Shown here: positions 10,664 through 37,061 of the stretch, piece after piece
How the letters are laid out: every line of letters begins with the position of its first letter
Numbering within the stretch: the first letter of the stretch is position 1
IMG/VR virus record: IMGVR_UViG_3300027872_000010
Span: 1 to 49,443 of that record
DNA from: a virus
DNA: 49,443 nucleotides
Direction: 5' to 3' (one strand)
Notes under the pieces: generated by a model
What the model saw: the letters and a program-made list of their open reading frames with translations, nothing else
The model's database searches: none
Told to the model about the DNA's origin: nothing
Position numbers and translations under genes: made by a program

Positions 10664-10839
10664 TCACGATTCACTCCCCTCTCAGCTTCAATTGCCAGAC
10701 GCTCTCCTGCCTGGACCAGTTGGTGCAGACGACGAGCTATGCTGACATCATTGTCCTCGGACACTCGATGTAAGCACTCGGCTATGTCACCCAGACGATT
10801 GTGGATTGCCCACAGTACCTCGTGTAAGTGTTCATCCAT
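10660..10839 (-). CDS. Small helical protein (59 aa)
   Basis: ATG at 10839 gives 59 residues beginning MDEHLHEVLWAIHNRLGD and ending in an acidic/basic helix. The whole sequence can form one or two amphipathic helices. A GGAG ribosome site lies 8 nt upstream, and the start overlaps the end of the winged-helix gene by 8 nt. It is the last gene of the leftward operon; its TAG overlaps the stop of the convergent rightward gene. Function unknown; a dimeric helical regulator or partner of the upstream DNA-binding protein is possible. Confidence 0.7.
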   Translation of the reverse strand: MDEHLHEVLWAIHNRLGDIAECLHRVSEDNDVSIARRLHQLVQAGERLAIEAERGVNRD

Positions 10840-11401
10840 GGGTTTTCTCCGTTTCCTTTCGGATGTTGGGTCGTTTGACGTTAGTGTCCAAGGAGTACCT
10901 TGGGGAGTTGGTCATAACTTGTCGCCCACGGGGCGTAAGGTCGTACAGACGACATGTCTGATTGATTTCATTTCTCCTGGTCTGTCGTGTCTTGTGCAGC
11001 CACTGCTGTCGGACCAAGTGAGATACGAGGGATGATGTGCTCATGGGCTTGAGTTCCTTGGCAACTGTCATCATCTCCGACACGCTGAGGGCCCCATGGC
11101 GAGCCAGGAGATCCATGATGATCTTCGCCCGGTTCTTGTACGCATAGCTGGGGTGCCCACTCCCCCACACCGGCACCACCCCACCGTACTGGGCGTCCAC
11201 CCAGACGATCGAACGTCGGTTGTTCTTTGATTTGCGACGTTGCTTGCTGTCCAAGATCTTTTTAGCCTTACACAGCTGGGTGAAGCAGGGGTACACCGTC
11301 TGCGGCAGGAGATCCGGGTACCGCTCTAGGAAGTCTGGTACGGTACGTCCTCGCTCCTTGGCCCACCCCACATACTGGTAGACCCTCTCCTTAATTGTCA
11401 T
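10832..11401 (-). CDS. Winged-helix DNA-binding protein
   Basis: 189 residues from ATG 11401, overlapping the GroES gene by 11 nt; the longer upstream open frame is not needed. Two helix-turn-helix-like regions are visible: residues about 4-60 (followed by a Lys/Arg-rich stretch), and a clearer winged helix at about 90-160 with the pattern of a MarR-like fold (a helix pair, then HLVRQQWLHK as the recognition-helix/wing junction, then YDLTPRGR). The role is probably transcriptional control within the phage. It is the best visible candidate to bind the dispersed 13-bp motif, but nothing in the sequence links the two directly. Confidence 0.65.
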   Translation of the reverse strand: MTIKERVYQYVGWAKERGRTVPDFLERYPDLLPQTVYPCFTQLCKAKKILDSKQRRKSKNNRRSIVWVDAQYGGVVPVWGSGHPSYAYKNRAKIIMDLLARHGALSVSEMMTVAKELKPMSTSSLVSHLVRQQWLHKTRQTRRNEINQTCRLYDLTPRGRQVMTNSPRYSLDTNVKRPNIRKETEKTHG

Positions 11402-11783
11402 TGGGCACCTCATCCCCAGAAGCTTCGACGGCCTGAACCTCGTCGTCATCGGGGGCGATCCTGAGCACGGGCACATCGTCGAGCGGGGGCACGACCTCAC
11501 GCAGGACGATCATAATGTCGTCCGCATCCACCACTATCACCTCCACGCCCTCAATGAGGAACTCCGTCCCGGCGAAGGAGGCGTAGACCACGTCGTCTCC
11601 TACGCAGATTGGCCCGCACGCCTCCACGCTGGCACTGAGGGCCACAACGTGGGCGAGCAAGGGCTTCTCACGGGAATCCTGTGGGAGGTGGATGCCGCCT
11701 GCCGTCTCGGTCGGGGCCTCATCCTTTACCAGGATCACTCGGTTGCCCAGGGGGATAGGTACTATTCGAGTTGTGTCGGTCAT
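11391..11783 (-). CDS. groES: GroES-like co-chaperonin
   Basis: 130 residues. Residues about 8-95 follow the Cpn10 family: PLGNRVILVKDEAPTETAGG (start strand and mobile loop), IHLPQDS, a dome-like turn, then VGDDVVY and a final strand VDADDIMIVL. The family caps GroEL and promotes folding; phage versions (T4 gp31 type) adapt host GroEL to capsid protein. No GroEL gene is in the window, so it would work with host GroEL. The C-terminal ~35 residues are an acidic extension not typical of GroES. The start overlaps the upstream stop (TAATG), so translation is probably coupled. Confidence 0.85.
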   Translation of the reverse strand: MTDTTRIVPIPLGNRVILVKDEAPTETAGGIHLPQDSREKPLLAHVVALSASVEACGPICVGDDVVYASFAGTEFLIEGVEVIVVDADDIMIVLREVVPPLDDVPVLRIAPDDDEVQAVEASGDEVPNDN

Positions 11784-11977
11784 TACTTGTCTCCTCGGTC
11801 AGCTAGGTAGTCTTCATACTCCTGAATGTGGCCCCACTGGTCGTCCCACTCGTCCTCGTCGAGAGGATCGAAGTCGTCGGGGAGGGTGTTACCACATGCA
11901 CACTCATCATTGTCCCGCCCGCACTCCAGGCACAGGTCATCTTGGTCCTCCTCTTTTATGTTAGGTACGATACTCAT
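11783..11977 (-). CDS. Small acidic zinc-ribbon-like protein (64 aa)
   Basis: 64 residues, very acidic (Asp/Glu-rich) with a CLECGRDNDECAC cluster that could bind one zinc ion. AGGAG lies 7 nt before ATG 11977. It is the first gene downstream of the structured leader at 11989-12045 and is coupled to groES (TAATG). Function unknown; acidic DNA mimicry is possible but speculative. Confidence 0.75.
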   Translation of the reverse strand: MSIVPNIKEEDQDDLCLECGRDNDECACGNTLPDDFDPLDEDEWDDQWGHIQEYEDYLADRGDK

Positions 11978-11988
11978 AACTGTCTCCT

Positions 11989-12045
11989 AAAATGAGAGGG
12001 GGACACGAGGACCAGCCTCGGCGGTCCCCCCACTCTCTCCCGATA
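11989..12045 (-). ncRNA. Structured 5' leader element A (motif plus two-part hairpin)
   Basis: Read on the - strand: the 13-bp motif, then outer stem GGGGGAC/GTCCCCC (12030-12024 with 12004-11998), inner stem CGAGG/CCTCG (12020-12016 with 12010-12006), pentaloop CTGGT, then CTCATTTT. The GAG of the motif can pair with the CTC after the stem, leaving a bulged U. Leader B at 21975-22031 shows the same order with different paired bases. It lies 11 nt upstream of ATG 11977, so it could act on translation or transcript stability of that gene and groES. Confidence 0.6.
12032..12045 (-). repeat. Dispersed motif, exact copy (intergenic)
   Basis: TATCGGGAGAGAGT on the - strand, sense to the operon and forming the 5' side of leader A. 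Confidence 0.85.
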
Positions 12046-12046
12046 A

Positions 12047-12095
12047 AGGACTGTGTCGGAGTCGAACCGACATCTGAACCCCATGTCAGCAGTCC
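12047..12095 (-). ncRNA. tRNA-like structure lacking one arm
   Basis: On the - strand a 49-nt sequence folds as: acceptor-like stem GGACTG/CAGTCC (12095-12090 with 12053-12048), a 4-bp arm CTGA/TCAG with 8-nt loop CATGGGGT, and a textbook T-arm GTCGG-TTCGACT-CCGAC (12071-12055), then unpaired T. There is room for only one arm between acceptor and T-arm, so it is not a standard tRNA, and CCA is not encoded. It could be a tRNA remnant, a tRNA-mimic regulatory RNA, or an attachment-site-like tRNA fragment. It sits in the largest internal gap of the replication operon. Confidence 0.4.
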
Positions 12096-12112
12096 TCAGG
12101 CCTTCCTAGGAC
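12092..12112 (-). terminator. Hairpin just after a stop codon
   Basis: GTCCTAGG-AAGG-CCTGAGGAC forms a stem with one bulged G, starting right after the stop of the 12114-12608 gene. No T-run follows, so it is a weak terminator or a processing/stability hairpin. It competes with the acceptor stem of the tRNA-like structure for bases 12092-12095. Confidence 0.35.
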
Positions 12113-12113
12113 C

Positions 12114-12608
12114 TTAGACCGGCACCTCAACCGGTCCGCTCTCCTCGGTCACCAGCTCAAGGAACCGAGTGTTCGTGTAGACCTTCTGGGACTCGGGGTT
12201 CGTCTTTGTGAACACCCGGACGTTGAGGACTGCCCCGATCTGCTCGGAGATTTCGAGGCTCGCCTCTCCCACCTCCGCCAACTTGAACTCTCGGTCACTG
12301 AGACACTTGGCCAGGCGGAGGAAGTTACTCATGCCCGGGGAGAGCTTCGATGCGTTACCGGGCATCCAGAAGAACTCTCCGAACGCTCGACCCTCGTACT
12401 CCCCGGCCACGATCCTGAGGATGGCGTTGCCTCGGGCATTTTCCAGGCCATCCTTGACGGAGACATTCTTCGTGAACTTCTCCAGGACCACGGTGTAGTT
12501 CCCGTCTTTGGGCTTCCACCCATCGTCCGAGTAATCCACCTCACCCTCGCCACCGGCACAACTCTCGACTACCTGCTGAAAGGCATCATCATTCGCACTC
12601 ATGCTCAT
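12114..12608 (-). CDS. ssDNA-binding-like protein (DUF669-like)
   Basis: 164 residues. After an acidic N-terminus the sequence runs through a beta-rich core (WKPKDGNYTVVLEKF, then RGNAILRIVAGEYEGRAF) and ends in an acidic tail (residues about 150-160). This pattern resembles phage DUF669-type proteins, which often sit beside a Sak4-like ATPase and are thought to act as single-strand DNA-binding or recombination-accessory proteins. The gene lies two genes downstream of such an ATPase here. The acidic C-terminus is also typical of SSBs that recruit partners. The family call is from pattern only. Start overlap ATGA with the upstream stop is not seen on its 3' side, where a 137-nt gap follows. 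Confidence 0.55.
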   Translation of the reverse strand: MSMSANDDAFQQVVESCAGGEGEVDYSDDGWKPKDGNYTVVLEKFTKNVSVKDGLENARGNAILRIVAGEYEGRAFGEFFWMPGNASKLSPGMSNFLRLAKCLSDREFKLAEVGEASLEISEQIGAVLNVRVFTKTNPESQKVYTNTRFLELVTEESGPVEVPV

Positions 12609-12820
12609 ACTCCCGTTGGAAAGTCCTCGTTCAACTGGTCAACCAGTTCGCTGATTGCCTTCTTGATCCTCACCGCGATCTTGGCTGAGTCGCACTGGAA
12701 CGGAACGTAGATGCTGATTGGACACTCGATCATGTCCAGATCAAACCTCGTTATCCGCTTCATGTCACGGCGGAAGATTCGGTGTTCCCCCATCACCGTG
12801 GTGAACTCATGGGTAATCAT
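12605..12820 (-). CDS. Hypothetical protein (71 aa)
   Basis: 71 residues, with an N-terminal basic half, a strand-like centre (PISIYVPF) and a helical C-terminus (KIAVRIKKAISELVDQL). No family recognised. It overlaps both neighbours by ATGA (start with the ATPase stop, stop with the next start), so it is co-translated with the recombination genes. Confidence 0.7.
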   Translation of the reverse strand: MITHEFTTVMGEHRIFRRDMKRITRFDLDMIECPISIYVPFQCDSAKIAVRIKKAISELVDQLNEDFPTGV

Positions 12821-13722
12821 ACCTCAGCTCCTCCATTGGTTAGTGTCTTGACTGCCCCGTCATACACATTGGACACGGTACTCCAGCCCGCGAGGCGTGG
12901 GACTTCGGTAGCGTCGGGGAACGGTACCCGAACCTTCACTTCATTGGTAGTCTCTCCCTTCCAAAGCCCTCCGGCCTTAGTCTTGAGGATGCGGCACTCA
13001 ACCTGGGACTGCACACCTGGGATGGAAATCGTCTTGCCAGCGACCTTACGAGTGGTCGAGGGAGCAGTCAGGGTCTTGGTGTGGAACTCCAGGAACATCA
13101 TGTGTTCACACTTGCGGTACAGAGCGTTGCGGAACGAGTCGGACACCGACAGGGACATTACAACGGTCTCCTGTCCGCCATGTCGGATGGTCTTGGGTGT
13201 GACATGGGCCAGCACGGTCCATCCGAAGCCGGCCTTGTACGCCCTGTCGAGGATGCCGAACACGTCCCGGCGGACGATGCTGTAGGCGTTGCCCTCTCCG
13301 CTGCGGTAATCGAGGGGGTCCTCCAGCTTGTGTTCCAGGCAGAAGTCCCGGAGGAAGATGTCGATCAGCTCGTCGATGGTGTCGATCACAATCATCTCGA
13401 TGTCCTTGGATCCCCTCTTACGTCTGGCAATCAGGGTGTCCACCATCGCCATGTAGGCCTTGGCGGTCTGGCCCTCGGGGGTGTCATCCGGACACGGGGC
13501 GAAGCAGAGGGCCTTGGGATCGTCCACTGTATTGCCACCGCCCTCAGGATCCAGGATGAACGCCTTCGGGTTGCTGTGTATCAGAGTGCTCTTGCCGCAC
13601 CCCGGTCGCCCGGTGAACACGAAGCGTCCTCTATTTACCGGGGGAGGCCGAAAGCCGGTGCTGATACCAGGGAGTGCCTGTAGGTCCTGCGGTATAGGAC
13701 TCGAAATTATCTGTGAAGTCAT
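12817..13722 (-). CDS. Sak4-like RecA-fold ATPase
   Basis: 301 residues. Walker A GRPGCGKST at residues 38-46, Walker B-like MIVIDTIDEL at about 110-119, and a following nucleotide-sensor region match the phage AAA_24/Sak4 group. These are compact RecA-like ATPases that promote single-strand annealing or recombination with a phage SSB. Flanking genes for a RecB/Cas4-like nuclease and an SSB-like protein make a complete recombination set. ATG 13722 has a GGAGG site 6 nt upstream, yet lies 92 nt inside the preceding zinc-finger gene. It would act in the cytoplasm on replicating phage DNA. Confidence 0.8.
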   Translation of the reverse strand: MTSQIISSPIPQDLQALPGISTGFRPPPVNRGRFVFTGRPGCGKSTLIHSNPKAFILDPEGGGNTVDDPKALCFAPCPDDTPEGQTAKAYMAMVDTLIARRKRGSKDIEMIVIDTIDELIDIFLRDFCLEHKLEDPLDYRSGEGNAYSIVRRDVFGILDRAYKAGFGWTVLAHVTPKTIRHGGQETVVMSLSVSDSFRNALYRKCEHMMFLEFHTKTLTAPSTTRKVAGKTISIPGVQSQVECRILKTKAGGLWKGETTNEVKVRVPFPDATEVPRLAGWSTVSNVYDGAVKTLTNGGAEV

Positions 13723-13948
13723 TCAGTTCCTCCAGTAGTTGGGTGTCACAACTAGGACACAGAAACGATTGGTCGTCCAGTGGTTCTGGCAAGGGAGTGA
13801 GTTCACAAAGTCCGGTATCACAGTATGAACATCGAATCTTGGAGTCCTCAAGACAGTCTCGACATGTCCACTCCACCTTGGAGAAGAAACTAGGGCTCGG
13901 AACACATTCCTTGGCGGGGACTCCACAGGTGTCACACTTAATCAGCAT
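13631..13948 (-). CDS. Zinc-ribbon protein overlapping the ATPase gene
   Basis: 105 residues from ATG 13948 (GGAGG 7 nt upstream). There are eight Cys in CxxC pairs: CDTC near the start, then CRDC, CSYC and CPSC, enough for two zinc sites. The last ~30 residues are read out of frame through the first 92 nt of the ATPase gene. The start lies within the end of the nuclease gene. The role is unknown; zinc ribbons of this type bind nucleic acid or protein partners. The zinc-binding part lies almost wholly upstream of the overlap, so the tail may be of little importance. Confidence 0.65.
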   Translation of the reverse strand: MLIKCDTCGVPAKECVPSPSFFSKVEWTCRDCLEDSKIRCSYCDTGLCELTPLPEPLDDQSFLCPSCDTQLLEELNDFTDNFESYTAGPTGTPWYQHRLSASPGK

Positions 13949-15158
13949 GGCGTTCCTCCTCTTCATCTTCTCGAAACTGAATGTTGAAACGGGTCTTGAC
14001 GATGTCAGGCCACATGATGGGTGAACTATCACACAGGTCAAGGAACGGGCACACCGAGTTGAACTGGTGACAGGCGTAGTCCCCAGCCCGATAGAATCTA
14101 TCCAGGTCGGGGGCTGCTCGACTCGCTCGGGACATCTGTCGCAGTCGGAGGTACAGCTCCCGGGTCAGGGTGGCCTCGGAGAAGTACGTCTGCGGCTGCA
14201 ACATCGGAGAGTGCTCCGGGTCCTCCTTGTGCTTGTCATTGTACCACGCGAGCACCCGGTCCAGGTAGGCGGGGAAGTCTTTGTCCTTCTTGCAGTATTT
14301 GATCGTGGGCTTTTTCACTATGTTGTGGATGGAACCCCGCACCTTCAGACCTTTGTGCTTCTCGCTCGTCTCCCCCCAGGAGTCCAGGTGGCACTGGAGG
14401 ACGAGTCGGTACAGAGCAATCTGGGGACTGATCTTGACGGACCGGGACCGAGCCAGCGTGTCGGCACTGGTCGTCTTGTGGTCCACAATCCAGACCTCGT
14501 TTGTCCCCTTCTTCACCAAGGCCAGGTCGCAGGGGGCCACGATGGGCGTGGGAATCCCCTGGACCTTGCTCTCCAGCAGCAGCTCCACACAGGGCTCGTC
14601 GTCGGGCGTATGAAGGATCTCCCACTTGTCCCAGTCAAAGGGGTTGTAGGCCATAAAAGCAAACGCCATGGCTCGACCCTTATGATAGTCATCCTCAGCA
14701 GCCTTGACCATCCCCTCCACCGACTTACCGTTCGGTGCGTACCCAGCCTCGTCAGCTGTGGCGAGGAGTGTATTGCAGAACCGGTGGAAGTATTGCTTGG
14801 CGGCATCAAGCGAGTCCTCCCTGGACTTGCCCATGAACATGGCCTGGAGTACGAGGTGAAACACCTGACCGAGGTGGAGGGCCGGCTGGTAGGTCTTAGG
14901 GCTGATCCCCAGCTTGTACCGGTACAGGAACTTGCGGGGACAGTGCTCGAAGTCATGGATCCCCGACGACCTGATAGGACTGACCCTGATGTCCGTGAAG
15001 AAATCGTCCAGGGCCTTGGGTCTCTTGGCCCCGAACTTGCTGTCCTTGTTGGCGTACTGGTCCACGCACTCCTTCACCCCATGACGGAGCGACGAGTCGT
15101 GCTTCGGCGGTTCGTAGTCAGGCTCGGTCTTGTCTTTATCTAACATCTCTGTCCCCAT
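13938..15158 (-). CDS. PD-(D/E)XK nuclease, RecB/Cas4-like with Fe-S cysteines
   Basis: 406 residues from ATG 15158; ATG 15146 is an alternative. Features in order: CPRKFLYRYKLG (first Cys, residues about 73-84), motif II as APCDLALVKKG, motif III as VDHKT, motif IV QIALY, then three Cys near the C-terminus (CHQFNSVCPFLDLC). One Cys before and three after the nuclease core is the layout of Cas4/AddB-type 4Fe-4S nucleases, so a 5'-3' exonuclease that resects DNA ends for the neighbouring Sak4-like ATPase is the likely role. A minus-strand promoter at 15311-15339 may drive it separately from the upstream genes. Confidence 0.8.
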   Translation of the reverse strand: MGTEMLDKDKTEPDYEPPKHDSSLRHGVKECVDQYANKDSKFGAKRPKALDDFFTDIRVSPIRSSGIHDFEHCPRKFLYRYKLGISPKTYQPALHLGQVFHLVLQAMFMGKSREDSLDAAKQYFHRFCNTLLATADEAGYAPNGKSVEGMVKAAEDDYHKGRAMAFAFMAYNPFDWDKWEILHTPDDEPCVELLLESKVQGIPTPIVAPCDLALVKKGTNEVWIVDHKTTSADTLARSRSVKISPQIALYRLVLQCHLDSWGETSEKHKGLKVRGSIHNIVKKPTIKYCKKDKDFPAYLDRVLAWYNDKHKEDPEHSPMLQPQTYFSEATLTRELYLRLRQMSRASRAAPDLDRFYRAGDYACHQFNSVCPFLDLCDSSPIMWPDIVKTRFNIQFREDEEEERHAD

Positions 15159-15726
15159 ACATCTCGTTCCACTCCTTTAGGGCCTCGTCTGTCCACGGCA
15201 TCTCGGGCGGGTCGGAACGTCCTTCTCCACACTTACACTGGAACGTAATCATCGGCTCGTCCAGTTGGATCTGCGGGATCGGTCGGTAGCATTTGTGGCA
15301 GCACGGAACGATACTACCCGGTTTTTTGTCGGAAGTCAAGGTGGCTTCCAGATTTTTTTTGACTAGGTTCTGCTCCCGACACACGTCATCCAGTTTTATC
15401 GGGAGAGAGCCGGTCCGGATCCGGTGAAGAGTGTGCACGTACATCATCAGGTTGAAGGCACACTGGATGGCGTGGTCCTCGTCCTCCTGCCCGTCCAAGG
15501 TCTGGACCAGGTGCCGGAAGGCCGACGCCAGGATGCGGGACAGGGGCATCCCCTTCTCCCAGTTCCGATCCCCGTAGTGCTTGCCCCCCTCGCGTGCCAG
15601 ATCCCCCATGCGGTACAGGAAGACCGGACTGAGGAGGTCGAGTCGGGGCTTGTCATCGGCGGCATCTCTCACAGCCCCCGACGTAAACGCCTCCTTCATG
15701 CTCCCTTGCTTCAGTTCGTAGGACAT
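15136..15726 (-). CDS. dATP/dGTP diphosphohydrolase-like (MazZ family)
   Basis: 196 residues. The N-terminal ~115 residues match the dATP/dGTP diphosphohydrolase domain found in phages: SGAVRDAADDKPRLDLLSP, then HYGDRNWEKGMPLSR, then a helix with HLVQTLDGQEDEDHA and a paired helix. The acidic/His residues of these helices bind metal and nucleotide in the MazG-like fold. A zinc-ribbon-like segment (CCHKC and CKC) forms the C-terminus. The enzyme would cut dNTP to dNMP and shape the nucleotide pool. In Z-genome phages this family accompanies PurZ, but no PurZ is visible here. It overlaps the nuclease gene downstream and ERCC4-like gene upstream. Confidence 0.75.
   Translation of the reverse strand: MSYELKQGSMKEAFTSGAVRDAADDKPRLDLLSPVFLYRMGDLAREGGKHYGDRNWEKGMPLSRILASAFRHLVQTLDGQEDEDHAIQCAFNLMMYVHTLHRIRTGSLPIKLDDVCREQNLVKKNLEATLTSDKKPGSIVPCCHKCYRPIPQIQLDEPMITFQCKCGEGRSDPPEMPWTDEALKEWNEMYGDRDVR
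15311..15339 (-). promoter_or_regulatory. Internal sigma70-type promoter (- strand)
   Basis: On the - strand TTGACT (15339-15334), 17-bp spacer, TAGTAT (15316-15311), inside the MazZ-like gene. It would add transcription of the RecB/Cas4-like nuclease, Sak4-like ATPase and SSB-like genes. A near copy of the 13-bp motif is 58 bp further downstream on the + strand sense (15397-15410). Confidence 0.5.
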
Positions 15727-16310
15727 GATTCATCTCCTTCCGTTATCCAGGTTGGTGCCCACTCCCACATCTTCTCTCGAAACTCGTCCGACCAGAGCCT
15801 GGCATCATAAGGTTTGTTTTGCTCATAGGCCAGGGAGAGACGGATGAGTTGTTCACCCAGTGTACGACGCTGTCTGGGTTGACGTGCCCCCCCTACAATC
15901 ATTAGTCTGAGGTTGAACCGGGCGACCACCTGCATCCAGCGGTCGAACACCAACTCCGGGTCCGGAACGTGGATGCTCTTTTGAAATAGCTCCGAGGGGG
16001 ACAGCTCGAAGACCAGGTGTGGGTAGGCACACGACTCGGACAGACGCTTAAGGGCACGAGCCTCTCGGGTCCAGTCCTTCGTGCATGTGTTGTTGTACAG
16101 CTCCCGGAGGCTACGCTTCGTTTCAAAGACACAGAGGTGGTCGTACTCTTCCAAGCAGTAGTCGCCCGCTGGCATGACCTCCACCTTCTGTTTGATGGCA
16201 ACCTGTTGAGTCCTACCGGTACGGTCGAGCTGGACCTCAATGTACTCAGGGAACAGGAGAGGCGTCTTCTCTCTCTTGTCTACGATTACGGTTACTTCGC
16301 TTGGTATCAT
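15711..16310 (-). CDS. ERCC4-like nuclease
   Basis: 199 residues. VIVDKREKTP at residues 8-17, then PAGDYCLEEYDH and VFETKRSLREL give the D-RE / GD / ExK spacing of the ERCC4 (XPF/Mus81-type) nuclease core, where the Asp and Glu bind metal. The remainder is helical. Phage members are thought to cut branched DNA or to assist recombination; here it sits among recombination and repair genes. The start overlaps the stop of a short upstream gene (TAATG) and another short gene overlaps its first 65 nt out of frame. Confidence 0.8.
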   Translation of the reverse strand: MIPSEVTVIVDKREKTPLLFPEYIEVQLDRTGRTQQVAIKQKVEVMPAGDYCLEEYDHLCVFETKRSLRELYNNTCTKDWTREARALKRLSESCAYPHLVFELSPSELFQKSIHVPDPELVFDRWMQVVARFNLRLMIVGGARQPRQRRTLGEQLIRLSLAYEQNKPYDARLWSDEFREKMWEWAPTWITEGDESCPTN

Positions 16311-16437
16311 TAACCTTTCCCCTCAGAGCCAACACCTTCAACATGAACACCTCTGCTGTCATGTCTGTCATCAGGTACCGCTCCACAAGGGCTTCGATCT
16401 GTTGCTCTAATGGGGTAGCCTCGTCGGTCGAGTTCAC
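16246..16437 (-). CDS. Small helical protein, GTG start (63 aa)
   Basis: 63 residues from GTG 16437, with a strong AGGAGG site 6 nt upstream. Residues about 8-38 form an amphipathic helix (EQQIEALVERYL onwards); the Arg/Asn-rich tail is read out of frame through the ERCC4 gene start. TAGTG couples it to the upstream gene. Part of a four-gene overlap ladder. Function unknown. Confidence 0.55.
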   Translation of the reverse strand: MNSTDEATPLEQQIEALVERYLMTDMTAEVFMLKVLALRGKVNDTKRSNRNRRQEREDASPVP

Positions 16438-16594
16438 TACACACCTCCTGTTTCACATGAGCCCGGAGACTCAGTGCTACCAGCTCGGCCATCTTCGCCG
16501 TCCGGGTCTGAAGGATGTGGGAGTCGATCTTCCTGCGGCCCAGGATCCCCTCCTTGGCTCTCTGTCTCGTCTTGAACGCACTGCGTCTGCTCAT
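16310..16594 (-). CDS. Small basic helical protein (94 aa)
   Basis: 94 residues from ATG 16594 with GGAGG 6 nt upstream. The first ~50 residues are basic and helical; the rest is Arg/Asp/Gly-rich and lies over the 16246-16437 gene in another frame. Its TAA overlaps the ATG of the ERCC4-like gene (TAATG), the arrangement used throughout this operon, which supports real translation. Function unknown. Confidence 0.5.
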   Translation of the reverse strand: MSRRSAFKTRQRAKEGILGRRKIDSHILQTRTAKMAELVALSLRAHVKQEVCSELDRRGYPIRATDRSPCGAVPDDRHDSRGVHVEGVGSEGKG

Positions 16595-16703
16595 CATCTT
16601 CCTCCGGGTTCCATGTCTTGAGTTCTCTCTTACCAAAGATGGCTTCGTAGCCTTCGTCAAACTTGGCCTTGTCCGTCGGCCTCTTCCAGTCGCCTTTCCC
16701 CAT
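16437..16703 (-). CDS. Small phage protein, KGD-RP type (88 aa)
   Basis: 88 residues from ATG 16703, AAGGAG 9 nt upstream. The start MGKGDWKRPTDKAKFDEGY followed by IFGKRE is a pattern I associate with many small uncharacterised phage proteins. The remainder from residue ~38 is low-complexity and overlaps the next gene in another frame. Ends TAG at the GTG of the 63-residue gene. Function unknown. Confidence 0.6.
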   Translation of the reverse strand: MGKGDWKRPTDKAKFDEGYEAIFGKRELKTWNPEEDDEQTQCVQDETESQGGDPGPQEDRLPHPSDPDGEDGRAGSTESPGSCETGGV

Positions 16704-16851
16704 CACTCTCGCTCCTTATGATAGCACACCTCAGTCTCCTCAGTGTTTCTGCACGCCCCAACAGCTCGGCAGCAGCCCCGACTCCAATGCCATGCGGCGA
16801 TCCAGTGAGAGCCTCCCGCACAGTGCCAAACACGAACCGACCGACGTTCAT
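16657..16851 (-). CDS. Hypothetical small protein (64 aa)
   Basis: 64 residues from ATG 16851, which overlaps the upstream stop by one base (TGATG). Ala/Gly/Arg-rich and helical, no motif recognised. Its end overlaps the start of the next gene by 47 nt. Confidence 0.5.
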   Translation of the reverse strand: MNVGRFVFGTVREALTGSPHGIGVGAAAELLGRAETLRRLRCAIIRSESDGERRLEEADGQGQV

Positions 16852-17027
16852 CACTCTTGCTCCTTCAGGGTCTTCTGGTACGCCTCCCACTGCTCCAGTG
16901 TCACCGGTATAAGTGGGTTCTCTCTGGGATTCCAATTCTCATACTTCTTGTAGAAGGCAGCTATGCTCTGGTTGACGTGGTCCTCGCAGCAGAACACGCC
17001 ACCTGTGTGCCCGTTGGGGCAGGTCAT
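16851..17027 (-). CDS. Small Cys-containing protein (58 aa)
   Basis: 58 residues from ATG 17027. The N-terminus has CPNGHTGGVFCC followed by His, a possible zinc site, then a Trp-rich helical part. Start overlaps the metallophosphoesterase stop (ATGA). Function unknown. Confidence 0.65.
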   Translation of the reverse strand: MTCPNGHTGGVFCCEDHVNQSIAAFYKKYENWNPRENPLIPVTLEQWEAYQKTLKEQE

Positions 17028-17761
17028 AGCTTCTCCCCTTTGTATCTCACCTGTCCGTTGCGGACCGTTACGAAGTTGACAAAGTGCCCGCCCGTCGCCG
17101 GGAACTCGACCACTGCCCATCCCTGCTGCCAGTTGGGAGCGGTGCGAACGTAGTCCAGCTTCCGGTAGTCGGCGAGGTACCCACACTCGTAGGCATCCTC
17201 GATCCCTTCCCAGGTGGTGCGGGGCGACCAGCCCTGCCGGTGGGTGTGCCCGATCATTACAGAGCCATGGATCTGATCGGACTTTGCCCGGGCGGACATT
17301 CCCGCTTGCGTCCGCAGAAGGTCCCCGTGTGAGTACCACAGGTCCCGGATCTTGTATGGGTTTTGGGTGGAGTGCCACTTGATTCCCAGTTTTTTCAGGC
17401 CCAGGAGGTCGGGTATGTTCATGCCCCGTAGCTCGGCCAGGGCTGGAGCCTTCCCCCACAGCATCTTCCGCAGACGGTCCTCGTGGTTGCCCTCGGAGTA
17501 CCTCACGTCGCACTCTCTCCCGATAAACCCTCGCACAGTGGTTAAGAAGTCCCGAGCTAAGTCTATCTCGTCCTGCAAGTTCAGCTTACGGGCTGGGTCC
17601 TTGTCAAATCGGGAGAGAGTACAGCAGTCCATCAGGTCCCCGATGATGTCGATGCCGTCTGGCTTGAGCACCTGAATGTGACACAGCCACAGCCGCAGCA
17701 AGTCCACGTCCTGGAAGGGGAAGTGGACATCGGGGAGCACGATTCGGGTGAGTGGTTTCAT
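17024..17761 (-). CDS. Calcineurin-like metallophosphoesterase
   Basis: 245 residues from ATG 17761 (ATGA overlap with the upstream gene, preferred over ATG 17770). All motifs of the dinuclear metallophosphoesterase fold are present in order: PDVHFP, GDLMD, GNHEDR, YSHGD and GHTHRQG. Phage members hydrolyse phosphodiesters or cyclic nucleotides, or remove DNA ends; the substrate here is unknown. The context is nucleotide and DNA metabolism. Two exact copies of the dispersed motif lie inside it in opposite orientation 81 bp apart (17512-17525, 17607-17620). Confidence 0.8.
   Translation of the reverse strand: MKPLTRIVLPDVHFPFQDVDLLRLWLCHIQVLKPDGIDIIGDLMDCCTLSRFDKDPARKLNLQDEIDLARDFLTTVRGFIGRECDVRYSEGNHEDRLRKMLWGKAPALAELRGMNIPDLLGLKKLGIKWHSTQNPYKIRDLWYSHGDLLRTQAGMSARAKSDQIHGSVMIGHTHRQGWSPRTTWEGIEDAYECGYLADYRKLDYVRTAPNWQQGWAVVEFPATGGHFVNFVTVRNGQVRYKGEKL
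17512..17525 (-). repeat. Dispersed motif, exact copy
   Basis: TATCGGGAGAGAGT on the - strand, inside and sense to the metallophosphoesterase gene. Confidence 0.85.
17607..17620 (+). repeat. Dispersed motif, exact copy
   Basis: AATCGGGAGAGAGT on the + strand in the same gene; forms an inverted pair with 17512-17525. Confidence 0.85.
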
Positions 17762-18174
17762 GCTGGGCATCTCCGTGTGTAGCAGTTGGGGTATGTCTCA
17801 AGGAAATAAGACAACCCTGATCGCACATCCACCCCCTTACTACGAGCATACTCACATTCTCGGTTCGCCCCTCTGGAGGCCCCGGGGATCCGCAGAACCA
17901 CGTCCGCATCATCAATGTAGCTCTTGTCCAGTTCCAGCCACTGCTCGTACTCGATGCGATGGGGGTGCATCAACTCACAGAACACAGTGAGGTGCGGGCA
18001 GTGGGGCACGAACCCTTCCTCAATGAGCCGGAAGTACGCCTCGATGGCCTCGTGGATCTTCGGCATGTTGAAGTTGTCCTTCGTGCCGTTCGTCATCGGG
18101 CCCGCAATGTACACCCGTAGTCGTCTCTTCGCAGACGGGTAGTCGGAACAGTCGAGCCGGGAATCGTCGTTCAT
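17758..18174 (-). CDS. DUF4406 / deoxyribosyltransferase-like protein
   Basis: 138 residues from ATG 18174, which overlaps the polymerase stop (TGATG). The pattern VYIAGPMTNGTKDNF near residue 21, DKSYIDDADVVLRIPGAS and the following GANRECEYARSKG match the nucleoside 2-deoxyribosyltransferase-like fold, in which the central Glu would act on the N-glycosidic bond. Many phage members are labelled DUF4406 without a tested substrate. Nucleotide salvage or detoxification is the likely theme. Confidence 0.7.
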   Translation of the reverse strand: MNDDSRLDCSDYPSAKRRLRVYIAGPMTNGTKDNFNMPKIHEAIEAYFRLIEEGFVPHCPHLTVFCELMHPHRIEYEQWLELDKSYIDDADVVLRIPGASRGANRECEYARSKGVDVRSGLSYFLETYPNCYTRRCPA

Positions 18175-20960
18175 CACGTCTTCTCCTTCATAGTTACTTC
18201 GTACTGGAGGGGCAGTGTACGCCCCAAGGTCTGGCACAATGCCTGGTAGTACGGGGGGTTGGGCAGGATCCGTGCCATCTCACGCAGGACTGTTGGCACC
18301 TCATGCTTTGGGCACTCAACAGTGGCCGCATCATACACGTTCAGGGGTAGGCGGGCCTTCATTCCCTTCTGCATGAAGGACCACTGGAGGTGGAACTGGG
18401 CGTCCAGCATGATGTTGGCAGCCTCCGCCTGTACCGGCATGTTGACCAGCTCCTTCATCTGGTCCTTGACATCCTGCCTGGTACCCAGGAAGAGTCGGGA
18501 CTGCCCGGCGAGGGGCAGTTGGAAGTAGCCGTGCTCACAGACGAACTCGTACAACTCCGCCTGCCACTGGGCGAGGCCCGCTGCCTGAGCCCACCAGGCG
18601 TCGATGTCACGTTGGCACTGTCCAACAGTGCGGGCGATCCCGCAATTCTTCATTAGGGTGGCTTGGTACTGGTGGGCCCCGCCGAGGTAGATCACTAGAA
18701 AATTGAGAGTCTTGCCAATCTGCCGGAACTTTTTTGCGTCCTTCTCACCGAACAGCTTGTGTGCGGTGCCCAAGTGGAAGTCGCAGTCTGGTTTACTGTA
18801 CTCCGACATCATCCAGGGGTCGTTGCTGAGAAGGGCGGCCAGTCGCAGCTCGATCTGTGAGTAGTCGAACCAGAGGCGGGCAGTGATACACGCCTTGATG
18901 GCCGGCGGAAACGTCTGGCAGGCGGGGCCTTTGAACACAATCCGACACTGTTTAGTTCCCCCGGACTTCCCGTCCTCAAAGTCTGAGGCGACGGGATAGA
19001 TGCGGGAGTATGCTCGCCCTTTGACGAGCTTTGTCGTGGGGTCGGTGTGATTCTTACCCCGCCCTACCAGAAGCGGATACAGGTACCTATCCAAAGTGCC
19101 GGCCACAGTGTGAACACGTCCAATCGATTTCAATTGCTGATAGGCCACAGTGTGGACAGATAAAGCTTCTAGGAGGGCGTTCCGGTTCGTCTCGCAGTAG
19201 GAGATCTCCTGTTTCACCTTCGTCCGCTCCAACTTGGGCACGAGTGAGTTCATAGTGAGTAAGGTGCGACACGCTTCGTCCATCACGGCTCTCTTGTGTG
19301 CCTCGCTCCCCTTCCCGCGGAGGTTGATGTCCCACCTGTCCTTGATCCCTTTCTCCAGTCGGTGGAGGCGGGAGACCAAGGATCGCATGAGCCCTTTCAA
19401 TGCCGGCTCGTTCATCTCGATCCCACTTTCCTCCATCCACACTGTCAGCCACAGGAGGCGGCTGTACCACTGGCGGTTGAACGTCCCGATTTTGGGCGAT
19501 GTAGGCCCATAGAGGGTCGATATTAAGCTTTCCAGTTTCAGGTGCGACAGTATCGTCGCCGCTGTGTCCTGGCAGTTGTACTGGTGCAGGCTCCCGCAAG
19601 TAGCGGTCGCGTATTGAGTAAAGCCATGCCCGTACCGAGTTATACGGAGAAGCGGGGCCAGGGCCTTCAGACTCCTCTCCGGTCTCCCCTCGTTGTACAG
19701 GTAGTTTGTGATCGTCAGGTCGGCTATGGGCAGAGGGTGGTTCAGCCATGGACGGCACTCCGGGTAAGCGTGTCTCAGGTACATCAGGTCGAACTTCACA
19801 TTCTGGCCAATCAGGTACTCGAAGGGGGCGGTCTCGCTTGAGGCCGTAGACGGTTCCTTGGGGGACGAGGGGGTTGGTGTAGAACTTATGCATTCGGTAT
19901 TTCCATTCCCCGGGGACCCTGGTCCGAGGTCCTTGTTTCCAGACCTCCTCGAAGATGAACACTTCCGTATCCAGGACCAAAGACGCCGCCGGTCCCTCTC
20001 CCGACTCATAACGAATATGGCATGGGCCAACTCTCCGGAGGGTGTCGGCCAGGACAGTCCAGTTGTCACACATAGGTTTTCCTTTCGTATTCCATCGTAC
20101 AGTTCCGACTTGAGCGGGTGGAACTGGGTCTGGTTCTGGCCCTGGAGAATGCCATAGGTTTCGATGTCCAGGGAGAGCCAGGCAAGGGGGTACGCGGGGG
20201 GCATGGGGGCCATGGCGATCTTCAGGTTACCCCCTTTGATGGCGTAAGTCAACTCTCCCTTGATGTAGTCGCGTAGCATGGAGAGGTGAGCGTTGACGTA
20301 GGGGCCTTTGTTCTTGTCACGGAGCAGGGCCGCGGGGTGATACGTGGTGAAGGTCGGGCAGGGACGGGGGAAAGGGGGATGGGTTGGGTCGTCAAGGTGT
20401 GGCCCAACCACATCCCCCACACGGATGATCCATTTCATGTTGGCAGTGGACTTCGTACTACAGGCAGTCAAGGCACGGAAGTCAGTGGTGTCACCCTGTC
20501 GGGAGAACGACTTCTTGAGGGACGTGTTCAGGACGGATTGAACCGCCGGGGCACCAACGCACAGGACGATGACCTCGTCGTAGACCTTCTGGAGGTTGAT
20601 GATGTCAGCCAGGTAGAAGCCTTGGCACGCCTTGAGCTGGGTCTTGGAGGGGTTGACGTTCTGGTAGGGCCGGCAGCGTACCGCGTTGGACAGGTAGACA
20701 TCAACGTGGTCGGTGAACTTGAAGTGGTCAATGTAGGCCTTCTTGAGGAGCTTCCCGGCCTTGCCCACCCACGGGGAGCCCTCCAGGTCCTCATTGTACC
20801 CAGGAGCTTCCCCTATCACGTACAAGGCTCGCTTTTGGTCGGGCTTATCCCAGGGCCACGGTTCCACGTCCGGGTAATGAACAGCCGGGATGCACACAGT
20901 CTTGCACGACAGGTGAAGTGGGCAGGCCTTGCACGATGGGTCATGGACGGCACAGGTCAT
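18174..20960 (-). CDS. polA: Uracil-DNA glycosylase-DNA polymerase A fusion
   Basis: 928 residues from ATG 20960, chosen because it overlaps the upstream stop as ATGA; ATG 21050 would add 30 residues. Residues 1-235 are a family 4/5-type UDG: CKACPLHLSC and CRPYQNV...C ligate Fe-S, GEAPGYNEDLEGSPWVGKAG is motif 1, and YHPAALL is the final motif. Next comes a 3'-5' exonuclease (LDIETYG, QNVKFD, YNCQD). The polymerase domain has motif A DYSQIELRLAA and motif B with K and F (GKTLNF), but motif C reads VYDAATVE, not the usual VHDE. The catalytic Asp is kept; the adjacent Glu is Ala. Between Exo I and Exo II about 47 residues are low-complexity (19825-19970). The protein would replicate phage DNA while sensing uracil. 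Confidence 0.9.
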   Translation of the reverse strand: MTCAVHDPSCKACPLHLSCKTVCIPAVHYPDVEPWPWDKPDQKRALYVIGEAPGYNEDLEGSPWVGKAGKLLKKAYIDHFKFTDHVDVYLSNAVRCRPYQNVNPSKTQLKACQGFYLADIINLQKVYDEVIVLCVGAPAVQSVLNTSLKKSFSRQGDTTDFRALTACSTKSTANMKWIIRVGDVVGPHLDDPTHPPFPRPCPTFTTYHPAALLRDKNKGPYVNAHLSMLRDYIKGELTYAIKGGNLKIAMAPMPPAYPLAWLSLDIETYGILQGQNQTQFHPLKSELYDGIRKENLCVTTGLSWPTPSGELAHAIFVMSRERDRRRLWSWIRKCSSSRRSGNKDLGPGSPGNGNTECISSTPTPSSPKEPSTASSETAPFEYLIGQNVKFDLMYLRHAYPECRPWLNHPLPIADLTITNYLYNEGRPERSLKALAPLLRITRYGHGFTQYATATCGSLHQYNCQDTAATILSHLKLESLISTLYGPTSPKIGTFNRQWYSRLLWLTVWMEESGIEMNEPALKGLMRSLVSRLHRLEKGIKDRWDINLRGKGSEAHKRAVMDEACRTLLTMNSLVPKLERTKVKQEISYCETNRNALLEALSVHTVAYQQLKSIGRVHTVAGTLDRYLYPLLVGRGKNHTDPTTKLVKGRAYSRIYPVASDFEDGKSGGTKQCRIVFKGPACQTFPPAIKACITARLWFDYSQIELRLAALLSNDPWMMSEYSKPDCDFHLGTAHKLFGEKDAKKFRQIGKTLNFLVIYLGGAHQYQATLMKNCGIARTVGQCQRDIDAWWAQAAGLAQWQAELYEFVCEHGYFQLPLAGQSRLFLGTRQDVKDQMKELVNMPVQAEAANIMLDAQFHLQWSFMQKGMKARLPLNVYDAATVECPKHEVPTVLREMARILPNPPYYQALCQTLGRTLPLQYEVTMKEKT

Positions 20961-21316
20961 CCCCCATCCTCCGTCCAGGGAACCATCATACCGTCCACAA
21001 ATGCCACATTCTCGTCTACTCCCATTGTTACCGGATTCCACAGGTTCCATACTCTCTCATACTGGCACAAAATCCAAGGACCCGGCAGACACCGATTGAT
21101 CCGATCCTTTGTCGTCTTAGTCCGATACCCACAAGAGTTAATAGTTACCTTCCCCTCCTTAAATAGTTCTACGATCGTACGACCGTACAGTTGAACCTCG
21201 ACCGTAGTGCCGTTGTCCAATAGTTCCGTATTGTAACAGACTGCCCGACGATGCTTGCCCCTAAGCAATGTCATCGCTTGCTCATACGACCTGCACTCAA
21301 AGTCTCGTACGTTCAT
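20957..21316 (-). CDS. Hypothetical protein upstream of polymerase (119 aa)
   Basis: 119 residues from ATG 21316, which overlaps the preceding stop (ATGA); the longer open frame upstream overlaps that gene and is not needed. Alternating strand and helix, with TTVEVQLYGRTIVELF in the middle and a Trp/Pro-rich C-terminus. No family recognised. Translation is coupled to the polymerase by another ATGA. Confidence 0.65.
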   Translation of the reverse strand: MNVRDFECRSYEQAMTLLRGKHRRAVCYNTELLDNGTTVEVQLYGRTIVELFKEGKVTINSCGYRTKTTKDRINRCLPGPWILCQYERVWNLWNPVTMGVDENVAFVDGMMVPWTEDGG

Positions 21317-21507
21317 ACCGGCTTCTCCACGCCCGCATCGACTACCCACGCATCTATGTGGGGGGCGTAGAAATTCTCCAGTTGACCCCCGACTCGGCGG
21401 TGATTGTGGATATAGTCGGACGCCTTCTGACGAGTGGAGAAGATACCGTGCCACGTAAACGTGGAGCCGTCATCTCCGTCACCGGTTTCTACCACGTAGA
21501 CTATCAT
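21313..21507 (-). CDS. Small DUF7336-like protein (64 aa)
   Basis: 64 residues from ATG 21507 (ATGA overlap). The pattern MIVYVVETGDGDDGS, then HGIFSTRQKASDYI, is shared in outline with the 57-residue protein at 32368 and the 59-residue protein at 33351: a strand, an acidic Gly turn, GxFST/FAT, then a helix. These are probable paralogues of a small alpha/beta domain common in phages. Function unknown. Confidence 0.65.
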   Translation of the reverse strand: MIVYVVETGDGDDGSTFTWHGIFSTRQKASDYIHNHRRVGGQLENFYAPHIDAWVVDAGVEKPV

Positions 21508-21797
21508 ACCGGTGGGTTCCACTCCTCTTCCCCGGGCAGCCCGAGGGCCCCGAAGGACTTGCCGTGGGCGAGGCGGTCAACAGCTGTGATCGTGAGCTTG
21601 AGGTTGTTTGTAAGTAGGAGAAGGGCGTTCTGGTTAGCCAGTACCGCAGACCGGATGATGTGCTGACTGGCCTCCAGGCGGTTCACACGAGAGACCAGGT
21701 CCTGCACGGCCGCGTCGCTGGCTGTCACAGGGTCGATGTCGGACGGTTCCGGGGCGGGCGGAGAGGCGGCTCGTCGATTCTGCGATTTTGAGTCCAT
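21504..21797 (-). CDS. First gene of leftward operon, coiled-coil (97 aa)
   Basis: 97 residues from ATG 21797, with AAGGAAG about 9 nt upstream. An Arg/Pro-rich N-terminus is followed by a helical, heptad-like segment (about residues 25-75) with hydrophobic NALLLLTNNLKL. It is the first gene after the leftward promoter, so it would be expressed early. No family recognised. Confidence 0.65.
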   Translation of the reverse strand: MDSKSQNRRAASPPAPEPSDIDPVTASDAAVQDLVSRVNRLEASQHIIRSAVLANQNALLLLTNNLKLTITAVDRLAHGKSFGALGLPGEEEWNPPV

Positions 21798-21847
21798 AGG
21801 GCAATCTTCCTTTGTGTTTGGCCGCCGCACCGTGCCGCGACGCCTTT

Positions 21848-21875
21848 ATCCTAGCGGCTTTTTTTGCGAAGTCAA
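21848..21875 (-). promoter_or_regulatory. Leftward sigma70-type promoter
   Basis: On the - strand TTGACT (21875-21870), 16-bp spacer, TAGGAT (21853-21848). An A-rich spacer and AT-rich upstream DNA may act as an UP element. Drives the early/replication operon with a ~45-nt leader. Confidence 0.7.
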
Positions 21876-21930
21876 ACGGCAAATAAAGAAAAAATCTGTA
21901 GTTTGTTCGTCCGATAATCCAAAATGCTTC

Positions 21931-21959
21931 TTGACTTCGGCCCGTAACCGGTGTATTAT
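21931..21959 (+). promoter_or_regulatory. Rightward sigma70-type promoter
   Basis: TTGACT (21931-21936), 17-bp spacer, TATTAT (21954-21959). It diverges from the leftward promoter, with 55 bp between the two -35 boxes. An exact copy of the 13-bp motif begins about 9 nt after the predicted start. Confidence 0.75.
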
Positions 21960-21974
21960 CCACTGAGGCTATGA

Positions 21975-21988
21975 AATCGGGAGAGAGT
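21975..21988 (+). repeat. Dispersed motif, exact copy (promoter-proximal)
   Basis: AATCGGGAGAGAGT just downstream of the rightward promoter; position fits an operator or the 5' end of the leader RNA. Confidence 0.85.
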
Positions 21989-22031
21989 GGGGGAGGCAAC
22001 TTCGCAGGTCGAAGTCCTCCCTCCTCATTTT
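21975..22031 (+). ncRNA. Structured 5' leader element B
   Basis: Motif, then outer stem GGGAGG/CCTCCC (21991-21996 with 22016-22021), inner stem ACTTCG/CGAAGT (21999-22004 with 22010-22015), pentaloop CAGGT, then CTCATTTT (22024-22031). Same order as leader A (pentaloop CTGGT, same CTCATTTT) with different paired bases. The motif GAG can pair with the later CTC, giving the same bulged U. The ATG of the first gene follows 30 nt later. Confidence 0.6.
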
Positions 22032-22061: not shown

Positions 22062-22655
22062 ATGGGACTGCAAGAAAGTGGACTTACGGGACGCGACGTT
22101 ACACAAACGTGCGAGCGGCAAACAGGCCTCCTAATGCAGCCTCCGGAGTCGCAGGTGCAGGAGCGAGACGGTACGACCCTCACGGTCATTCCTACGACTG
22201 TGGGGGCCATCGCCACCAGCGATATCAACGTGGAATTCGGTACGCCCTTTATGATCCACTGTGGAATCAGTGCCGGCGAGCTTGTCGCAGGTGATGCCAC
22301 CTACAACATGCGGGTGTTCGGGACCGACGGCTCGCCCTTTAAGTTCCGGGTGTTGCTCATCTGGGGCCATGCCCAAGGAACGGACGCCCAGGACGGCACG
22401 CTGACCGCGGTCCATTACACCCTCGACAGTGCGGGAGCCCTCGACACGGCGACCGCGATGACCGACGGCGACAAGATGACCACCAACGTCGCTAATGGGC
22501 TGATGCAGTTTGGCATGACTCCAGACACCAGCACGCTCATCGAAGCGGCTGCCGTTGTGGACTCCGGCGACGAGCTGGTTCTTCGATTCTTGACGAGTGA
22601 CGCCAGCGAAGGCGAAGAGTTCTCGGTCAAGATCCTTTGCATGAGGATTCAATAA
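22062..22655 (+). CDS. Virion-like beta-rich protein 1 (197 aa)
   Basis: 197 residues from ATG 22062 with AGGAGA upstream; the in-frame GTG at 21987 lies in the structured leader and is rejected. Beta-rich and Asp/Thr/Gly-rich. The second half (DSAGALDTATAMTDGD, then DSGDELVLRFLT) resembles receptor-binding or decoration proteins. No family recognised. The next gene starts at its stop (TAATG). Confidence 0.55.
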   Translation: MGLQESGLTGRDVTQTCERQTGLLMQPPESQVQERDGTTLTVIPTTVGAIATSDINVEFGTPFMIHCGISAGELVAGDATYNMRVFGTDGSPFKFRVLLIWGHAQGTDAQDGTLTAVHYTLDSAGALDTATAMTDGDKMTTNVANGLMQFGMTPDTSTLIEAAAVVDSGDELVLRFLTSDASEGEEFSVKILCMRIQ

Positions 22656-23218: not shown

Positions 23219-23742
23219 GTCTGAATGAAACTGGAAGAACCGGCGTCAAGGTGAACCTCACGGCGGACGGGGTCTTCGGGATCGTTACCCAGGATCCGGA
23301 GAGTATGTTGCACTCCCCCGGGGGAATGGAAGACGCCGCGGGGAACTCAGGCTACGGACAACCATTCACCTTGATGTCGCGTCCGGCCCAGACAGCGAGT
23401 GGAACCTCAACGGCCACCTTCGCCTCCTCGGACGCTCCATTTAAGTTCCGAATCATTGGGGGTGAAATCGAATGCCTCCAGGATGCCCGGGGCAGGACGA
23501 AGGCGGGGGATGGTCGGTGCTCGGTGAACATCATGGCGGGCAGCACAAATACCGTGGCCAGCGTCAACTGCACGGAGATGAAGCAGGGAGACGTGCGGCG
23601 GATCCGACCCAACACCTTGGGGAATGAGGTCATTGCGGCGAATGGCAGCCTCAGTGCGGCGTGTGTCAGTGTGCTTCCGTCGGATGCGACGAGTTCAACC
23701 TGGGAACTTCTGGTGAAACTAGATTGTGTGAGGGTCATTTGA
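23215..23742 (+). CDS. Virion-like beta-rich protein 3 (175 aa)
   Basis: 175 residues from ATG 23215 (ATGA). Ser/Thr/Gly-rich with several short strands and four Cys spread through the chain. It shares with the preceding two the short, strand-rich build ending in a LVKLDCVRV-type strand. A decoration or tail-fibre-associated protein is the best guess. Stop overlaps the next ATG (TGATG). Confidence 0.5.
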   Translation: MSLNETGRTGVKVNLTADGVFGIVTQDPESMLHSPGGMEDAAGNSGYGQPFTLMSRPAQTASGTSTATFASSDAPFKFRIIGGEIECLQDARGRTKAGDGRCSVNIMAGSTNTVASVNCTEMKQGDVRRIRPNTLGNEVIAANGSLSAACVSVLPSDATSSTWELLVKLDCVRVI

Positions 23743-24497
23743 TGAGAAAACAAGAGCCATTGCTCGAATACCCGGCCGCGGCTGGAATCCACCGGGACTG
23801 GCGTCGAGGGCGGCTGGAGCTGGTATGGGCCGCGGGCGAACTGGGGATTCCTTCGGACAACGCCGACATCATCAGTACGACTGAGGCCACGGCTGTTACC
23901 TGCGATCGGGACTTTGAGATTCAAGGTACGAATGCGAGTACGGATGACGTACTCCATAATGCTACAGGTGGAATAACTGCCCAGACGGACGGGGCGGACA
24001 ACGACCAGGTCATCCTGGTTCCACACCAGGACGCCAACCAGAGTCCGTGGAATGTCGTGACCTGGGGCAGTGACCGGGAGACACGGTGGGAGTGCCTGCT
24101 GAAAACCCCTTTATCGGACGTTCTGACGGGAATCCACTTGTTCGCCGGGCTCAAGGCCGACCTGGATGCGGGCGTGGACGACGCTGACCTGATTGTGTTC
24201 AACTTCAACACAGATGACAGCGATCGGACGTGGGGAGTTGTGGCCAATGTTGACGGCGGGACAGCTACAGACACTGATACGAGTGTGGCGGTCGCGGCGG
24301 GCCGTATCTACCATTTCGTTATCGACTTTGATAACGCCGGTTGTGCCCATTGCTTCATCGACGACGTGCTTGTGGCTGAGATCGACTTTGCGGGAGCATC
24401 GGCGGACCTGAATCCAGTTCTGTTGCTTCAATCCCTGTCGGGGACGACCGACGAGGTATTCTGGTATCACCAGAAGATTGGACGAAACTATGGCTAG
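23742..24497 (+). CDS. Lectin-like virion protein, paralogue 1 (251 aa)
   Basis: 251 residues from ATG 23742. The core (about residues 80-245) shares a clear pattern with the next two genes: DNDQVILVPHQDANQSPW, then TWGSDRETRWECLLKT, a GIHLFAGL strand, a DxD turn, and a YHFVIDFDNAG strand. This is the alternating-strand layout of concanavalin A-like jelly-roll domains that bind sugars; that fold is my inference. Three such genes in a row suggest duplicated surface or receptor-binding proteins. It overlaps the next gene by 8 nt. Confidence 0.6.
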   Translation: MRKQEPLLEYPAAAGIHRDWRRGRLELVWAAGELGIPSDNADIISTTEATAVTCDRDFEIQGTNASTDDVLHNATGGITAQTDGADNDQVILVPHQDANQSPWNVVTWGSDRETRWECLLKTPLSDVLTGIHLFAGLKADLDAGVDDADLIVFNFNTDDSDRTWGVVANVDGGTATDTDTSVAVAAGRIYHFVIDFDNAGCAHCFIDDVLVAEIDFAGASADLNPVLLLQSLSGTTDEVFWYHQKIGRNYG

Positions 24498-25281: not shown

Positions 25282-25293
25282 AGGAAAGAAAAC

Positions 25294-37044: not shown

Positions 37045-37061
37045 ATCGGGAGAGAGCGAAT

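Follow-up and report, generated by a model that had tools for sequence, protein, structure and literature searches.

Two structured elements in the genome of an uncultured phage, one on each strand, are on comparative evidence copies of one conserved structured cis RNA. The window, by which we mean the whole stretch of DNA analysed, is a complete IMG/VR virus record of 49,443 bases. Each element is a two-part hairpin next to a copy of a short motif that is dispersed along the genome, and the motif itself behaves as a separate DNA feature, putatively an operator, distinct from the hairpin. Comparison of the sequences points to a so far undescribed RNA element that would control late genes of the phage, and we infer a regulatory function for the hairpin. 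Its coupling to the motif offers a well-defined example, open to testing, of an operator in DNA and an element in RNA that evolve together as a single switch, and the RNA could give a handle on late-gene timing in uncultured phages of 50–56 kb; sixteen genomes or fragments of this group each have a dispersed-site set of their own.

Structure and covariation of the hairpin

A DNA-level search with the window found no similar DNA in named phages, no cultured near-clade relative was found in the phage collection, and scans of genome contigs gave no near relatives; the close relatives recovered by protein searches come from IMG/VR only. The near-clade records are G001 (3300005663_000054), G004 (3300037247_000370), G006 (3300024429_000008), G007 (3300037560_000072) and a fragment, G005, and their DNA polymerase and terminase are mostly 59–75% identical to those of the window. 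A distant clade adds about 12 records, which are genomes of approximately 50–56 kb or pieces of such genomes, with DNA polymerase identities of 27–32%. The region of the right hairpin is present in five near-clade genomes (the window, G001, G004, G006 and G007).

In the window, both hairpins lie exactly where the sequence-only reading had placed them, with the paired bases and C(T/A)GGT pentaloops that it had described. The right hairpin (21987..22027, plus strand), which has orthologues in G001, G004, G006 and G007, consists of an 8-bp outer stem (21989–21996/22016–22023), a 5-bp inner stem (22000–22004/22010–22014) and the pentaloop CAGGT (22005–22009); at its foot is a lower GAG/CTC pairing with a bulged T, and TTTT follows straight after it (22028..22031). 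The left hairpin (11993..12033, minus strand; full element 12033–11989) has its outer stem at 12031–12024/12004–11997, its inner stem at 12020–12016/12010–12006, the pentaloop CTGGT at 12015–12011 and TTTT at 11989..11992. The near clade holds seven clear copies, five right and two left (window and G007). They share a common geometry: an outer stem of 8–9 bp, an internal loop with two or three bases 5′ and none or one 3′, an inner stem of 5–6 bp, a five-base loop and a short U-run, with a bulged U at the foot in most copies. The inner stem is almost wholly rewritten across the five genomes (CGAGG/CCUCG, CUUCG/CGAAG, CGGGA/UUCCG, UGGUG/CACCA, UCUGG/CCAGA and, in G006, GUAAUG/CGUUGC), with the geometry kept. 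In all seven copies UUUU comes no more than a few bases after the stem, in runs of 4–7 T (four in the window), and four copies retain the pentaloop C(T/A)GGT.

Compensatory change had been put forward as the mark of a conserved cis RNA structure, and the alignment bears this out. In the six alignable copies, 78 of 78 cells are paired, against a shuffled mean of 78%, changes are two-sided in nine of the 13 pairs, and the covariation score of 0.83 (0.33 shuffled) was reached by none of 500 shuffles; these figures are not strict probabilities, given the small number of copies, among which two pairs each come from a single genome. Structures slid along the alignment are only 58–72% paired, and RNAalifold recovers the same structure unaided. 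A search of phage genomes with a covariance model had been named as a check, and the model, built before the left copy of G007 was known, recovered that unseen copy (L323 8247–8291, plus strand; E = 3.8e-16). The stability of the single hairpins against dinucleotide shuffles is moderate (z of –1.5 and –2.4 for the 57-mers). The two sites nevertheless give the most stable 50-nt downstream folds among 19 motif sites of the window, and rank first of 500 random stretches. Rfam release 15 finds no family in the window, and both hairpin sites score at chance level, below the gathering threshold; among the matches listed, structure-pattern scans of IMG/VR returned only these near relatives besides chance matches. 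One exact hit, L001, was set aside: it lies in an unrelated contig, and the match is a coincidence of coding sequence (IGREW).

The dispersed motif and its tie to the hairpin

The 13-bp motif is over-represented in the window, with 20 sites (two or fewer mismatches) for 3.0 expected, and a full-length genome of the group (window; G001, G003, G004, G006–G013 and G015–G018) has 17–57 copies. Its sequence differs between clades. Each near genome over-represents its own version, ATCGGGAGAGAG in the window, AAGCCGGGAGAG in G001, ACCGGGAGAG in G004 and G007, and GCAGAGACAGG in G006; the distant relatives have mostly CTGCGGAGG, with others in some. The 467 sites counted in the 16 genomes or fragments, using gene calls from a simple script, divide into 174 same-strand and 181 opposite-strand sites within genes, and 112 that fall outside genes, where 58 would be expected. 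There is thus a twofold enrichment outside genes and no preferred orientation relative to them. Several copies in the distant clade fall within sigma-70 spacers in one register (for example, of the TTGACT-tcctCCGCAGaagtgg-TATAAT type), and across all genomes 17 of 230 promoters overlap a motif copy (9.4 expected). Owing to its enrichment outside genes and its presence inside promoter spacers, the motif would act like a DNA operator site; group-wide, it resembles a stoperator system that lacks an orientation rule. Three other identities were rejected: the 5′ seed of a small RNA, since the copies show no orientation bias towards genes; the promoter of a single-subunit RNA polymerase, since both orientations are equal and host-type promoters exist; and a classical stoperator, since the orientation rule fails (174 versus 181). 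Convergent motif pairs were also observed, at 37047 (plus) and 37105 (minus) in the window and at 3765 (plus) and 3808 (minus) in G006, where the pair makes up a long inverted repeat between two genes and resembles a bidirectional hairpin.

The hairpin adjoins the local version of the motif in every near relative, despite drift among ATCGGGAGAGAG, AAGCCGGGAGAG, ACCGGGAGAG and GCAGAGACAGG, and motif and hairpin can therefore be taken to form a unit. The converse, that the motif exists for the RNA, does not stand, as such a hairpin is lacking at about 140 near-clade copies, which lie on either strand and for the most part within genes, and in the distant clade motifs are present and the leader hairpin was not found. 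Folds downstream of the other motif sites in the near genomes are ordinary, save for a few unrelated stable stretches inside genes.

The proposal that the motif supplies the 5′ strand of the hairpin holds for its last two or three bases, which pair firmly below the bulged U in most copies. The U-run and the bases following it offer pairing partners for the rest of the motif in G001, G006, the left copy of G007 and the right copy of the window (GCC/GGC, UGCA/UGCA, CC/GG and UC/GA). When 3′ arms are swapped from copy to copy, the fold becomes weaker in 94–99.5% of permutations, depending on arm length, the cognate value being reached in approximately 0.5–6%; as a post hoc test on seven arms, this makes the additional pairing suggestive.

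Genomic setting and possible action

A sigma-70-type promoter, TTGACT-17-TATTAT (21931..21959, plus strand; 10 of 12 matches), lies upstream of the right hairpin, and the right motif copy ATCGGGAGAGAG (21976..21987, plus) is just downstream of the predicted transcription start. The first gene of the virion-side operon (22062..22655, plus; 197 aa, with a beta-rich model of low confidence) would be transcribed through the hairpin. The start of this operon has the same order in all five near genomes: a promoter TTGACT-17-TAxxxT, the genome's own motif, the hairpin, the U-run, a Shine–Dalgarno sequence (SD) and ATG. Every right copy accordingly has a sigma-70-type promoter upstream, and the motif is at or after the predicted start in 5/5 genomes. 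The hairpin begins no more than about 15 nt from that start in G006, G007 and G000, and about 45 nt from it in G001. A second promoter-like sequence, TTGACT-16-TAGGAT (21848..21875, minus strand), diverges towards the replication operon; it has no adjoining motif copy, and a divergent counterpart containing TTGACT is visible in relatives. A leader peptide or N-terminal extension running from GTG 21987 through the hairpin is ruled out by the relatives: the hairpin is non-coding, since the same frame stops in G007 (ACATTTTTTGA) and is out of frame with the ATG in G001. Further into the virion side, three adjacent genes (23742–26040, plus; 251, 263 and 248 aa) match one stretch of G001 and look like a tandem duplication.

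The two copies had been assigned to the 5′ UTRs of opposite-strand operons, which fits the right copy, whose promoter is recognisable. The left copy is internal to an operon, and in the window no promoter could be made out directly upstream of it. It follows the stop codon of gene 12114–12602 and precedes gene 11783–11977, both of one minus-strand operon, and is thus an intercistronic element, for which '5′ leader' is at best a tentative label. Its motif lies at 12033..12042 (minus). Directly downstream come a 64-aa acidic CxxC protein (11783..11977, minus), GroES (11391–11783, minus) and a basic protein with tandem winged-helix-like segments (10832–11401, minus). The left hairpin is clear in the window and G007. 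At the same locus, G006 has a motif and a G-rich bipartite hairpin without a U-run, likely a variant of the left copy; G004 has the motif only and G001 neither motif nor hairpin, and the GroES operons persist in both. A tRNA-like fold with an acceptor stem and T arm and without a D arm occurs directly after gene 12114–12602 (12047–12096, minus), in G001 (approximately 37255–37310, plus) and in G004 (13356–13410, plus); its stems differ yet pair in all three genomes, and against Rfam it gives only tRNA-Sec scores below threshold. G004 also has a tRNA-His at 13460–13533.

The explanation ranked first, which we hold tentatively and at somewhat under an even chance, is that the hairpin is an attenuator or pause signal gating late genes beside an operator-like site. 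RNA polymerase from the virion-operon promoter would make the right hairpin, and polymerase coming from the replication genes the left one. Once the hairpin had formed after transcription start, polymerase would pause or partly terminate, and a protein on the adjacent motif, or another phage factor, would set the level of read-through into the virion genes; the same control at the left copy would govern passage into the GroES and winged-helix genes. This reading draws on the stem and U-run between promoter and first gene, and on the adjacent site, which could regulate; it is supported by the genes downstream of the two copies, the virion operon and GroES, which are expected to be late. The attenuation, the motif-binding protein and the timing we likewise infer. 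As motif binder, the winged-helix-like protein is a candidate: it is very basic and conserved, with two winged-helix-like segments, and is found in the near clade only, being missing from the distant clade, where dispersed motifs persist. Structure models of this protein and of the first virion protein are poor and of low confidence. Against attenuation count the U-run of only four in the window, the absence of the left hairpin from G001 and G004, the G006 left variant without a U-run, and the d'Aubenton-Carafa score, negative in all seven clear copies (–2.2 to –29.1, worst in the window). A strong terminator was rejected on this score, and efficient termination is thus unlikely, at least in the window.

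The simplest rival, a less probable one, is that the hairpin protects the mRNA or boosts translation as a 5′ element of strongly expressed structural genes, in the manner of the T7 gene 10 leader. The motif would then be a promoter-proximal operator only, and the U-run would serve ribosomes as a stand-by site or be a single-stranded spacer. The stem is stable, the terminator scores are negative, SD and ATG are no more than about 35 nt further on, and the short distance to the predicted start in G006, G007 and G000 fits; at the left copy, the tRNA-like fold of the window, just upstream of the motif, could be cut to leave a new 5′ end. This account sits poorly with the ~45 nt in G001, with left copies that are internal to operons (in G007 without a preceding tRNA-like fold), and with the constant internal loop, pentaloop and U-run, features that mere stabilisation should not require. 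Rather unlikely is a more ambitious proposal, that hairpin and fast-drifting operator make up a new class of phage regulatory RNA, one unit switching polymerase between stopping and processive late transcription. A protein on the operator DNA, or on the matching sequence of the nascent RNA, would then work with the hairpin, and operator and stem would have to co-evolve as a joint switch.

We consider it unlikely that the hairpin is an antitermination element, either a nascent RNA like HK022 put or one bound by a protein as in lambda nut, permitting read-through of the virion operon. Two related elements serve oppositely directed operons, one of them directly downstream of a promoter, as with putL and putR (PMC9378689), and the fixed geometry, the bulged U at the foot and the pentaloop on a 5–6 bp stem fit recognition of shape. 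Since geometry is constant and sequence free, a protein or RNA polymerase may read that shape, which keeps the idea alive. It is weakened by the single bipartite stem in place of the two stem-loops of put, the distance of the left copy from its presumed operon start (~10 kb) and the varying loop sequence; inspection found no boxA-like element common to the right copies, and no N-like peptide rich in arginine was seen next to it. Least probable is that a double-strand-specific ribonuclease cuts at the hairpin and so parts early from late segments of the transcript. In favour are the intercistronic left copy and a total helix that reaches ~20 bp in G001 and G006 when lower stem and U-run pairing are included; against it, typical substrates of RNase III are longer than the firm pairing here (13–16 bp with an internal loop), and a position right after a promoter leaves little to separate.

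Comparison with known systems

The stoperators of Cluster A mycobacteriophages (L5 and TipsytheTRex) are 13-bp asymmetric, clade-specific sites numbering approximately 20–30 per genome (PMC9283540, PMC6550527). The phage motif is like them in being asymmetric, clade-specific and dispersed at many sites, in promoters and elsewhere; stoperators are oriented with transcription, whereas the motif is not (174 same versus 181 opposite). An immunity repressor binds stoperators; no recognisable L5-like repressor was found here, where the winged-helix-like protein with its low-confidence model is a candidate binder, and the available portions of PMC9283540 and PMC6550527 do not mention an RNA hairpin joined to a stoperator site.

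Like HK022 putL and putR, the two copies are related structured RNAs in transcribed leaders of opposite operons, with a bulged U near the base of the stem. The put RNAs are, however, ~70 nt long with two stem-loops, whereas the phage element measures ~45–57 nt, has a single bipartite stem and ends in a U-run; its left copy is far from its promoter, and factor-independent antitermination of the put kind is putative for it. In lambda nut, boxA is followed by boxB, a 5-bp stem with a pentaloop that is read by N; the inner stem here has 5–6 bp and a pentaloop, but inspection showed no boxA shared by the right copies.

The lambda late promoter, with Q and tR′, offers a parallel in layout: a sigma-70 promoter, a phage DNA site, a hairpin shortly downstream and virion genes beyond. 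The Q binding element lies between –35 and –10, whereas the motif at the virion promoter is at or downstream of the start; the terminator score here is poor, and no Q was found. The T7 gene 10 leader likewise places a stem-loop close to the 5′ end of the mRNA for a structural gene. The phage hairpin differs from it in being coupled to a dispersed operator-like motif, in the U-run after its stem and in having a second, intercistronic copy. With intrinsic terminators it shares a G+C-rich stem followed by a U-run, but that run is short, the d'Aubenton-Carafa score is negative and the internal architecture is strictly kept.
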